64,000 nucleotides of DNA from Actinopolymorpha alba DSM 45243 (GTDB lineage: Bacteria > Actinomycetota > Actinomycetes > Propionibacteriales > Actinopolymorphaceae). The position numbers and the translations under genes were made by a program. The notes under the pieces are model-generated. The model searched no databases and was not told where the DNA came from. It saw only the letters and a list, made by a program, of their open reading frames with translations. The stretch spans positions 1 through 64,000 of the forward strand of contig NZ_KB892754.1 of assembly GCF_000373925.1 (NCBI RefSeq), read 5' to 3'. Shown here one piece after another: positions 28,878 to 31,638 of this stretch. Each line of letters begins with the position of its first letter. The first letter of the stretch is position 1.

Positions 28878-30542
28878 GTGAAGCGGAAAGAATATCTCGA
28901 TCTTCGCGGTTTCGAGACCAGAAGGTATTCAGTTCTTGATGCAATCCTGGCGGTCGATACCGACCTCGACCTCAATGAGATTCTTGCCCGTGTCGCGCAG
29001 GTCGCTCGCCTGTTACTGAATGCCCGTTACGCCGTTCTCGCGGTGACCACCACGGATGACCTGGCCGCGGCGACCGTACCGTCCGGTCTTTCCACGCCGG
29101 AGGCCCGTCAACTCGGCGACTCGCGCGATCTCCTGACGAGCCTGGCCCGCCTCTTCCCCTCCACCGCGCCCTCCCGGTGGTGCGAGATCCATCCCCCTCC
29201 GGCCGGCCCGCACCTATCGCCCGGCATCCCGCCGACCACGAGCATGGTGGGTGCTCGGATCGCCATCGGAGGCGACGATCTCGGATTCCTGTGGGCTGGC
29301 GACAAGGTGAACGCACCGGAGTTCACGCCGGAGGACGATCTTCGCCTGGCGACGATCGCGATCGTCGCTCGTACCGCGATCGGCAACGCTCGACTTCGCG
29401 AGCGGGAGCGGCGCCGGCAGCAGTGGCTCGAGGCCGCTGCCGACCTCAACCGCCTGCTGTTCGAGGCAGCCAACCCTGGTGAGGCATTGCGGTGGGTCGA
29501 CGAGCGGATCCGCACGATCTCCGGTGCGTCCTGGTGCGGGATCTTCCTCCTGGACCCGAGTGAACCAAGCACGATCATGATCGAGTCGATCCAGGGTCCT
29601 GGCATCGACTACCAGGCCAGCGTGCGTTCACCCCTCGGCGGTCTTCGGGAGGCCGCTCTCAAGTCCGGCCGGTGCATCGTGAGCACGGACCTCATCAGCG
29701 ACCCCCGCTACAGCCCCTCCGCCGACTGGCCGGATGCGCTCGACGCTGTGGGGCCAGCCGTGATCGTGCCGCTGCTGGCGCCCGGAGAGGCCGTCGGCAC
29801 TCTCGTACTCGCCTGGCCGGAGGGACCAGCTCAGGTCCGCACGGCGGTCGCGGAAGCTCCGATGCTCGAGTTCTTCGCCAGCCGGGCGGCGCTTGCCTTC
29901 CAGCAGGTCAGTCACGAACGCCGACGCTCGCGGCTGCGAGTGCTCGCCGACCGCGATCGGATCGCCCAGGATCTCAACGACACGGTGATTCAACGGCTGT
30001 TCGCGGTGGGGACCCTTCTGGAGAGCGCCAGGGGGCTGACCCGTCAGCCGGAGGTGCGTGACCGCGTCGGCAGAGCGGTCACCGAGCTCGACAAGACCAC
30101 GCAGCACGCCCGAGCGGCGGTCTTCCAGCTGCGTACGCCCGATCCCGCCGACGTGTCGTCGGTCCGGAGCCAACTCTTCGCTGAGATCGATGCCGCCCGC
30201 GAGTTGCTGGGCTCGACTCCGCGACTCGTCCTCCACGGCCGGGTCGACACCGTGTCGACGCATATGCGCAGCGAGATCATGGCCACCGTGCACACGGCGC
30301 TGCTCATGGCGGCGCGGCAGGATCCCGTCAGCGACGTCGAGGTAAGACTCGAAGTGGACGACACGACGGTTCGGCTGACCGTTGCCTATGCCGGTGCACC
30401 GCCGTCCGGAGTCCGATCGCGTTCCGAGCCAGGGCTCGCCGACCTCGTTGCCCAAGCCGAGCGGCTGGGTGGCTCCTGCACAGTCCATACGGACGATGCG
30501 GGGATGACCACGCTTGACTGGTGCGTACGCAAGGGCGCTTGA
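28878..30542 (+). CDS. tandem GAF protein with a degenerate DevS/DosS-type kinase core (pseudokinase)
   Basis: 554 residues from GTG 28878, with GGAAG upstream. Two GAF-like domains (about 30-175 and 195-345) precede a region matching the HisKA_3 of DevS/DosS oxygen sensors. The consensus there is DLHD followed by VIQRLFA, but this protein has DLNDTVIQRLFAVG with Asn367 in place of the phospho-acceptor His. The C-terminal ATPase-like region lacks the N-box Asn (HTALLMAARQ), and the G1 box is replaced by AYAGAPPSG. Autophosphorylation is therefore unlikely. It may act as a ligand-controlled partner or decoy for an active kinase. No response regulator is adjacent. Confidence 0.85.
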   Translation: MKRKEYLDLRGFETRRYSVLDAILAVDTDLDLNEILARVAQVARLLLNARYAVLAVTTTDDLAAATVPSGLSTPEARQLGDSRDLLTSLARLFPSTAPSRWCEIHPPPAGPHLSPGIPPTTSMVGARIAIGGDDLGFLWAGDKVNAPEFTPEDDLRLATIAIVARTAIGNARLRERERRRQQWLEAAADLNRLLFEAANPGEALRWVDERIRTISGASWCGIFLLDPSEPSTIMIESIQGPGIDYQASVRSPLGGLREAALKSGRCIVSTDLISDPRYSPSADWPDALDAVGPAVIVPLLAPGEAVGTLVLAWPEGPAQVRTAVAEAPMLEFFASRAALAFQQVSHERRRSRLRVLADRDRIAQDLNDTVIQRLFAVGTLLESARGLTRQPEVRDRVGRAVTELDKTTQHARAAVFQLRTPDPADVSSVRSQLFAEIDAARELLGSTPRLVLHGRVDTVSTHMRSEIMATVHTALLMAARQDPVSDVEVRLEVDDTTVRLTVAYAGAPPSGVRSRSEPGLADLVAQAERLGGSCTVHTDDAGMTTLDWCVRKGA

Positions 30543-30617
30543 CCGGCTCCTAGGCGACGAAGGATCGACACCCATCCATGCGGAGAAGGCTCAGACAAGT
30601 CGCGGACGCAGGGCCAT

Positions 30618-30664
30618 GATCGTGAAGGATTTTCGTCGCTATATGACCAAAATCCTTCACGATC
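30618..30664 (+). terminator. 16-bp perfect hairpin
   Basis: GATCGTGAAGGATTTT (30618-30633) pairs perfectly with AAAATCCTTCACGATC (30649-30664), with a 15-base loop. It lies about 75 bases after the pseudokinase stop; the four A-U pairs sit at the loop side. Confidence 0.6.
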
Positions 30665-30816
30665 CTTGAAGGGGCAGCCTCAGGTCTCACGTACCGGACG
30701 GCTTGCGATGTGTCATGGGGATATGCCCCGCCTCGTACCGCAGAAGGTGTACACAATGTGAGACGCGACCTGCGGCACGCCCGACTTGGCGCCCCCGGTG
30801 GCCGGCCGGCGGCGGT

Positions 30817-30845
30817 TTGCCTGAATGCCGCGCGGTTGCTATACC
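30817..30845 (+). promoter_or_regulatory. candidate promoter of the riboswitch transcript
   Basis: TTGCCT (30817-30822), a 17-bp spacer and TATACC (30840-30845), four of six matches each. Transcription would begin near 30852, about 17 bases before the aptamer. Confidence 0.45.
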
Positions 30846-30868
30846 TGTGGCAAGCCCCGACAAGGCCA

Positions 30869-30910
30869 GCGGACGAGGGAGCAGTACCCGCACAGCGACA
30901 AGACTGACTC
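30869..30910 (+). promoter_or_regulatory. guanidine-III riboswitch (ykkC-III class)
   Basis: The segment has the conserved blocks of the class in order. GCGG (30869-30872) pairs with CCGC (30888-30891). ACGAGG follows the first arm, GAGCAGT follows, and GACAAG lies in the 3' part before ACTGACTC (30903-30910). GAGCAGT can pair with ACTG-A-CTC as the pseudoknot helix, with one bulged A. From memory of the Thermobifida aptamer, its helices have different bases but the same pairing, so the changes are compensatory. The class binds guanidinium. It precedes two SMR exporter genes, which is the usual context. Confidence 0.85.
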
Positions 30911-30924
30911 ATGGAGGGTGAGTC
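30906..30924 (+). promoter_or_regulatory. Shine-Dalgarno hairpin, expression platform of the guanidine switch
   Basis: GACTCAT (30906-30912) can pair with GTGAGTC (30918-30924), leaving GGAGG (30913-30917) exactly in the loop. The 5' arm GACTC is also the 3' strand of the aptamer pseudoknot, so the two structures exclude each other. The GTG start lies at 30929. Ligand binding would free the ribosome site (ON switch); this is inference from pairing. Confidence 0.6.
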
Positions 30925-30928
30925 TGTC

Positions 30929-31243
30929 GTGGCCTGGGTCATTCTGATTCTGTCCGGGGTGTTCGAAGCTGTCTGGGCGACCGCGCTCGCCGAATCCCGG
31001 GGACTAAAGCGTCCTGTTCCGACGGTGGTGTTTCTCGTCGCGCTTGTCGTGAGCATGACGGGCCTCGCCGTTGCCATGAACGCCGTACCGACCGGAACCG
31101 CCTACGCCGTGTGGGTTGGTGTGGGCGCGCTCCTGACCGTCGCCGGGGCAATCATTCGCGGAAAGGAAAGGGCCTCCACCGCGAAGCTACTCCTACTGGC
31201 CGGCCTGATCGCGTGCGTAGCTGGCCTGAAGGCGGTGAGCTGA
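30929..31243 (+). CDS. SMR-family guanidinium exporter subunit (SugE/Gdx-like)
   Basis: 104 residues with four membrane helices, and the SMR hallmark Glu in the first helix (GVFEAVWATALAES). The WATAL pattern and the GTAYAVWVGVGA loop place it in the SugE/Gdx branch, which exports guanidinium in exchange for protons. GTG 30929 is preferred to ATG 30911, because GGAGGG at 30913-30918 is 10 bases before it, the ATG falls at the aptamer edge with no ribosome site, and the product then begins VAWVILI like relatives. It overlaps the second SMR gene (TGATG), suggesting a heterodimeric transporter. Confidence 0.88.
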   Translation: MAWVILILSGVFEAVWATALAESRGLKRPVPTVVFLVALVVSMTGLAVAMNAVPTGTAYAVWVGVGALLTVAGAIIRGKERASTAKLLLLAGLIACVAGLKAVS

Positions 31244-31638
31244 TGTCGTGGGCGATTCTCATTCTCAGCGCGATTTTCGAGGCCGTGTGGGCGACCGCGT
31301 TGGGGAGGTCCGACGGATTCACGATGGTCGGGCCCACAGTCGTGTTCGGCGTGGGGATGGTCATCAGCATGGTCGGACTCGCCATCGCCATGACGAGGAT
31401 TCCGATCAGCGTCGCCTACGCGGTATGGGTCGGGTTGGGAGCGGCCCTCACGGTCGCCTTCGCGATGGCTAGCGGGGACGAGCCGGCGTCCGTGGCCAAG
31501 GTGATCTTCCTCGCCGGCATTATCGCCTGCGTGATCGGCCTGAAGTTCGTCAGGACCAAGCCGGGCAGGAATGCCGACTCTGTGAACGGCACACAGGAGG
31601 AGCCCGCCCGATCCGATGCCACCGTTCGCGAGGGTTAG
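31243..31638 (+). CDS. SMR-family guanidinium exporter partner subunit (SugE/Gdx-like)
   Basis: 131 residues with four membrane helices and the conserved Glu in ILSAIFEAVWATALG. A hydrophilic C-terminal tail of about 25 residues is absent from the first subunit. The ATG overlaps the upstream TGA. Paired SMR genes usually give a two-component exporter with fixed opposite topologies. The tail would then help set orientation or pairing (inference). Confidence 0.87.
   Translation: MSWAILILSAIFEAVWATALGRSDGFTMVGPTVVFGVGMVISMVGLAIAMTRIPISVAYAVWVGLGAALTVAFAMASGDEPASVAKVIFLAGIIACVIGLKFVRTKPGRNADSVNGTQEEPARSDATVREG

Follow-up and report, generated by a model that had tools for sequence, protein, structure and literature searches.

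The analysed window, a 64,000-nt stretch of the genome of Actinopolymorpha alba DSM 45243, contains two consecutive genes for small multidrug resistance (SMR)-family proteins, preceded by a guanidine-III riboswitch aptamer (Table 1). For both proteins, the top-scoring NCBIfam model was SugE (NF008512), with 80.3 and 70.6 bits, under its cut-off of 126; both are classed as SMR family only, the cut-off for the SugE/Gdx subtype having been missed. Guanidine export by both proteins is likely, from their context rather than from their sequence. Guanidine-III RNAs precede guanidine-related genes, commonly those of SMR exporters, and the guanidine-III motif pattern is present at 75 of the 80 named SMR loci most similar to this one.

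Table 1. Features of the riboswitch and exporter region, in window coordinates
Feature	Coordinates	Strand	Basis
Possible -10 promoter element TTGCTATACC, just 5' of the aptamer	30836-30845	+	TGCTA recurrence in homologs
Guanidine-III aptamer (RF01763)	30849-30913	+	Rfam, 44.5 bits
P1 stem of the Rfam model	30854-30866	+	Alignment; three standard pairs only (GCC 30854-30856/GGC 30864-30866)
GCGG (30869-30872)/CCGC (30888-30891) helix, around ACGA and the 5' pseudoknot strand	30869-30891	+	Homolog pair counts
5' pseudoknot strand GAGCAGT	30879-30885	+	Pairs with 30903-30910, one bulged A
Predicted OFF hairpin	30895-30930	+	30895-30900/30925-30930, 30902-30905/30921-30924 and 30907-30910/30916-30919; loop AUGGA 30911-30915; -19.1 kcal/mol
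Conserved core GACAAG	30897-30902	+	Rfam consensus; common to the OFF hairpin
Hairpin register of the initial annotation, loop GGAGG 30913-30917	30902-30928	+	-12.2 kcal/mol, z -3.06
3' pseudoknot strand ACTGACTC, used in both states	30903-30910	+	Rfam alignment, fold
Shine-Dalgarno GGAGGG, 10 nt 5' of the start	30913-30918	+	SD call
SMR exporter gene 1, GTG start, 104 aa	30929-31243	+	PF00893, 67.8 bits (scan from ATG 30911)
SMR exporter gene 2	31243-31638	+	PF00893, 69.2 bits; ATG shares one base with the TGA of gene 1

The first gene most likely starts at GTG 30929, as had been proposed in the initial annotation; the Shine-Dalgarno (SD) sequence lies 10 nt 5' of it, and the predicted protein begins with V-A-W, which aligns with its homologs. 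Tryptophan occupies residue 3 in 193 of 233 homologs (sample described below), a count that is not independent because the start caller rewarded the M-x-W motif. The ATG at 30911 was rejected as a start, since no SD precedes it and it falls at the 3' end of the aptamer. Tandem SMR genes after the riboswitch are rare: a loose N-terminus pattern picked them out at 12 of 230 homologous loci, at least one of which (L241) is doubtful. Several of the tandem loci (L222, L226, L231, L242, and L245) share the rare GCGG/CCGC type of aptamer, and they perhaps represent a lineage of paired, possibly heterodimeric exporters. The genome also contains a third SMR gene on another contig (L042, G000:C49:45478-45795), which shares 44% identity with gene 1 and for which the genome search gave no guanidine-III match.

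At the Rfam gathering thresholds, RF01763 (guanidine-III) was the sole match in the window, with an E-value of 5.4e-6, a score above the cut-off of 36 bits, and an alignment covering model positions 1-67, i.e. the full length; the class assignment made in the initial annotation was thereby borne out. The interval proposed there (30817-30930) contains the aptamer, but the aptamer itself starts 32 nt further in, because the Rfam match begins at 30849. The conserved core elements ACGA (30873), GUACCC (30884), and GACAAG (30897) are present, and all of the blocks listed previously were found in place, among them ACGAGG from 30873, GACAAG at 30897-30902, GGAGGG at 30913-30918, GAGTC at 30920-30924, and GTG at 30929-30931. 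The pseudoknot GAGCAGU/ACUGACUC, consisting of seven pairs and a single bulge (nearest-neighbour energy -5.9 kcal/mol), joins the strand 5' of GUACC with the strand 3' of GACAAG, as the class requires. The compensatory changes claimed for the aptamer blocks are real in the GCGG/CCGC helix, whose outer pair is C-G in 224, G-C in 7, and mismatched in 2 of the 233 homologs, the window locus being of the minority G-C type; the 5' stem, P1, is poor at this locus.

A single guanidine-III copy was found in this genome. Of 391 genomes sampled across the order, 224 carried the motif, as did 175 of 394 in an overlapping sample of the class; in the small family it was seen in 2 of 8 genomes, and none of the five remaining genomes of the genus had it. 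In the other family member with a match (L032, genome G018), GTAAAG replaces GACAAG, the SD is poor, and the downstream gene begins MTEQIVQLVG; this locus has an altered core ahead of a gene with a different start.

Upstream of the aptamer, the pentamer TGCTA recurs within 55 nt in 47 of the 233 homologs (46 of them as TGCTANNNT), compared with 5 of 233 after shuffling, and it was absent from a downstream control stretch of the homologs. The site resembles an extended -10 element, from which transcription would begin at P1; a sigma-70 scan found no promoter here. Further upstream, an inverted repeat (30618-30664) with 20-nt arms of 95% complementarity and a 7-nt spacing separates the riboswitch from the histidine kinase gene that precedes it. 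It coincides with a terminator-like site on the minus strand, and is possibly a terminator insulating the operon.

The initial annotation had proposed that the 3' pseudoknot strand can pair instead with GAGTC downstream of the SD, forming a helix whose five-base loop is GGAGG. This helix does fold, with seven pairs between GACTCAT (30906-30912) and GTGAGTC (30918-30924) and, beyond a U.U mismatch, three more between GAC (30902-30904) and GTC (30926-30928). Its stability of -12.2 kcal/mol was matched by no dinucleotide shuffle out of 200, and structures as stable arose in 52 of 20,000 trials when only the SD-to-start spacer was shuffled (pseudoknot strand and SD fixed) and in 45 of 20,000 when the entire stretch was shuffled. 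A stronger register exists, however, once the conserved core is included: the fold of 30895-30931 reaches -19.1 kcal/mol, and over the same 36 nt the two registers score -17.0 (with the core) and -13.6 kcal/mol. The segment 30896-30931 is far more stable than its shuffled versions (z -3.83, 0/200 as stable), whereas neither the whole 87-nt leader (z -1.13, 31/200 as stable) nor the aptamer alone (z -0.02) is unusually stable.

In this best hairpin, GCGACA (30895-30900), GACU (30902-30905), and ACUC (30907-30910) serve as the 5' arms, and the structure is predicted to occupy the core, all but one of the eight 3' pseudoknot strand bases, three of the six SD bases (GGG), and positions 1 and 2 of the start codon. 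The SD would be occluded in the OFF state, as had been supposed, but it is half paired rather than exposed in a five-base loop, the loop is AUGGA, and the core and the start codon are taken up as well. The pseudoknot and the anti-SD hairpin are mutually exclusive, in agreement with the earlier proposal, because both need the 3' pseudoknot strand. Help from the ligand would be needed for the pseudoknot to win, since its duplex amounts to only -5.9 kcal/mol without the core and triplex contacts that the ligand would add.

The letters GACTC/GAGTC are not conserved as such: among the relatives folded, only Mycolicibacterium rhodesiae (L301) keeps them, and there another register is better with the core included. 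Equivalent helices are present in Nocardia lijiangensis (L267, 69% protein identity), as GACUGACC(AUGGA)GGUCAGUC immediately 5' of the GTG, in N. amikacinitolerans (L275), in the same form except for a single A to G substitution that preserves a pair, and in N. puris (L268), as GACUGGCC(AGGA)GGUCGGUC. On the other hand, L226, which has the same pseudoknot strand as the window locus, gave no hairpin on folding, and L278 gave only a weak one, so that the predicted conservation holds in part.

For a broader comparison, confined to the class Actinomycetes, 236 riboswitch loci were collected (L001, L002-L031, L032, L043-L142, L143-L166, and L167-L246), which are high-scoring matches among those listed rather than all matches. 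Five listed matches were left out (the second one in G113 and those in G546, G547, G571, and G670), and of the same-order matches in the class draw only those already in the set were used. Two loci (L152 and L155) were not located by the motif pattern and one (L022) lacked an SD; the remaining 233 gave both a start and an SD. After removal of L032, L057, L132, L139, L195, L212, L237, and L241 for N, long leaders or SD overlap, 225 leaders in 132 clusters were obtained; clustering does not make related leaders wholly independent.

The trinucleotide GTC stands directly 5' of the start at 114 of the 233 loci and in 60 of the 132 clusters, compared with 6 of 197 background genes, the starts of which were called by a simple ORF and SD rule. 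It is complementary to the GAC at the 3' end of the aptamer, which is constant by construction because the locating pattern requires AAGAC. When the strands were slid against each other, standard pairs were most frequent at register 0 (0.60 versus 0.24-0.55 at the ten remaining slides), with slides +3 and +5 close behind (0.54 and 0.55, respectively), and column pairs at a fixed register showed little excess above independence over the homologs. Because the register and the loop length vary between leaders, energy-based swap tests were used; the support for the competition thus comes from energies and composition and not from textbook covariation.

In the swap test over the 132 clusters, the pseudoknot strand pairs with its own SD-spacer arm at a mean of -8.99 kcal/mol, compared with -7.82 kcal/mol for the arms of other clusters (z -6.4, 0/5000 permutations), and with -7.97 kcal/mol when only the spacer is swapped and the own SD is kept. 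The effect persists under stricter clustering, with z-values of -4.8 (84 clusters, 0/5000), -3.5 (49 clusters, 2/5000), and -3.1 (23 clusters, 9/5000). Among the controls, coding sequence right after the start gave z -1.7 (263/5000, not far from 5%), coding sequence further in gave +1.9, and the P1 region in place of the pseudoknot strand gave +0.8. The result was replicated in 24 further clusters from named genomes (z -2.6, 27/5000); these were the new clusters among 73 usable loci, out of 75 with the motif and 80 named loci in total. The effect per leader is moderate: 11% of the 132 clusters lie within the best 5% of their own swaps, at least four of the eight strand bases are paired by 76% of own and 72% of swapped arms, and the hairpin is weaker than -6 kcal/mol in 43 of the 132 clusters. 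Judged from these leader sequences, anti-SD competition is widespread in the relatives but not universal, and its exact letters are mostly not kept.

Withholding the core and the pseudoknot strand lowered the modelled cost of opening the stretch from the SD to the start from 16.4 to 5.5 kcal/mol at the window locus, and from 10.2 to 5.8 kcal/mol over the 132 clusters; the mean difference of 4.4 kcal/mol compares with 2.2 kcal/mol when the linker and spacer are shuffled. The mean probability that the SD is unpaired is not higher in this ON model, which contains neither tertiary contacts nor ligand: it is 0.49 in both states over the clusters and changes from 0.51 to 0.37 at the window locus, as the SD finds other pairing partners in that state. 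The model points to easier opening of the entire ribosome site rather than to an exposed SD.

Class membership, the competing hairpin, and the recurrence of the competition in relatives are computed results. We consider that the element is probably a guanidine-III riboswitch that turns on translation of an operon encoding two exporters of the SMR family, with guanidine as their probable substrate; guanidine binding, the direction of the switch, its effect on translation, and the coupling of the two genes are what we infer. Without guanidine, the core GCGACA and most of the 3' pseudoknot strand would pair with the SD-to-start spacer in the hairpin 30895-30930, sequestering the GTG start together with one half of the SD. 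Guanidine would stabilize the aptamer pseudoknot, and the hairpin could then not form because the pseudoknot needs the same core and 3' strand. With the hairpin lost, the ribosome would load at GGAGGG/GTG 30929, and the second gene, with its one-base overlap, would follow by translational coupling.

For Actinomycetes in general, we lean, with some reserve, towards the view that guanidine-III riboswitches often have no separate expression platform. The 3' end of the aptamer (core and pseudoknot strand) would itself be the anti-SD strand, pairing the bases between the SD and the start, so that approximately 20-40 nt downstream of the core could accommodate the switching part. The letters of the spacer, which often ends in GTC, would change during evolution while its complementarity is kept, and the window locus would represent a strong variant, with the start codon, too, inside the helix.

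The aptamer might instead act mainly on mRNA stability, with the downstream hairpin of minor importance; a block of RNase E scanning by the ligand-bound pseudoknot is reported for guanidine-III in the excerpted text of a 2025 review citing Richards and Belasco 2021 (PMC12186494). Such an action needs the aptamer alone and accords with the weak hairpins of many relatives (43 of the 132 clusters), but it leaves unexplained both the excess complementarity of the SD-spacer arm and the GTC before the start, and we regard it as unlikely to be the main function here, while noting that the RNase E and translational mechanisms can coexist. A transcriptional switch, with the alternative structure acting as a terminator or leading into one, has precedent in the guanidine-I and -IV classes, which work in that manner according to the same excerpt (PMC12186494). 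We consider it highly improbable at this locus, since a scan of 30540-31000 found no terminator-like site on the plus strand, the hairpin is followed by no T run, and the gene starts within the hairpin.

The complementarity might also be a by-product, with pyrimidine-rich pseudoknot strands pairing by chance with purine-rich SDs in hairpins that have no regulatory role. The near independence of fixed-register column pairs, the 72% of swapped arms that still pair at least four of the eight strand bases, and the residual relatedness of the clustered leaders all accord with this explanation. Against it, spacer-only swaps keep the own SD and yet lose stability, GTC before the start is far over background, and the control arms are near zero; we therefore think a mere by-product rather improbable. 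Regulation of translation by the shared-strand hairpin remains our preferred reading of the locus. If true, it would make this one of the very small ON switches of translation that occur naturally, and it would predict which short spacers give guanidine-inducible exporter genes in actinobacteria.

The novelty implied in the initial annotation does not hold, in that translational ON control of guanidine-III has already been proposed (PMC5696562, PMC12186494, both as excerpted); in view of these published proposals, the element is an ordinary member of the known guanidine-III class (also ykkC-III), and its nature is unchanged by the pairing scheme. According to the excerpted text of the review (PMC12186494), guanidine-III both frees the SD for translation and blocks RNase E for stability. 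The RNase E-protected guanidine-III RNA described there (citing Richards and Belasco 2021) shares with the window locus the aptamer class and the formation of the pseudoknot as the switch, and differs in acting on mRNA decay. Guanidine-II (mini-ykkC) is likewise described in that excerpt as a translational ON switch associated with similar genes (PMC12186494), but it consists of two kissing hairpins with no shared pseudoknot strand, and it is unmatched in the window, where RF01763 is the single Rfam match. The closest counterpart is the guanidine-III riboswitch of T. fusca, solved as a crystal structure, which, in the excerpted text of Huang et al. (PMC5696562), has the same core, pseudoknot, SMR exporter association, ON direction, and nearby ribosome site; exposure of that site upon binding is called probable there. 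In T. fusca, 16 nt separate the aptamer from the ribosome site and the excerpt names no competing pairing, whereas at the window locus, with its minority G-C outer pair, the SD follows directly after the pseudoknot strand and the hairpin is explicit. What is added here is thus a proposed explicit shared-strand hairpin, its corrected register, and a statistical case for its recurrence in actinobacterial relatives, which would turn the loose published statement of a riboswitch near a ribosome site into a specific pairing scheme that applies here and in many relatives.
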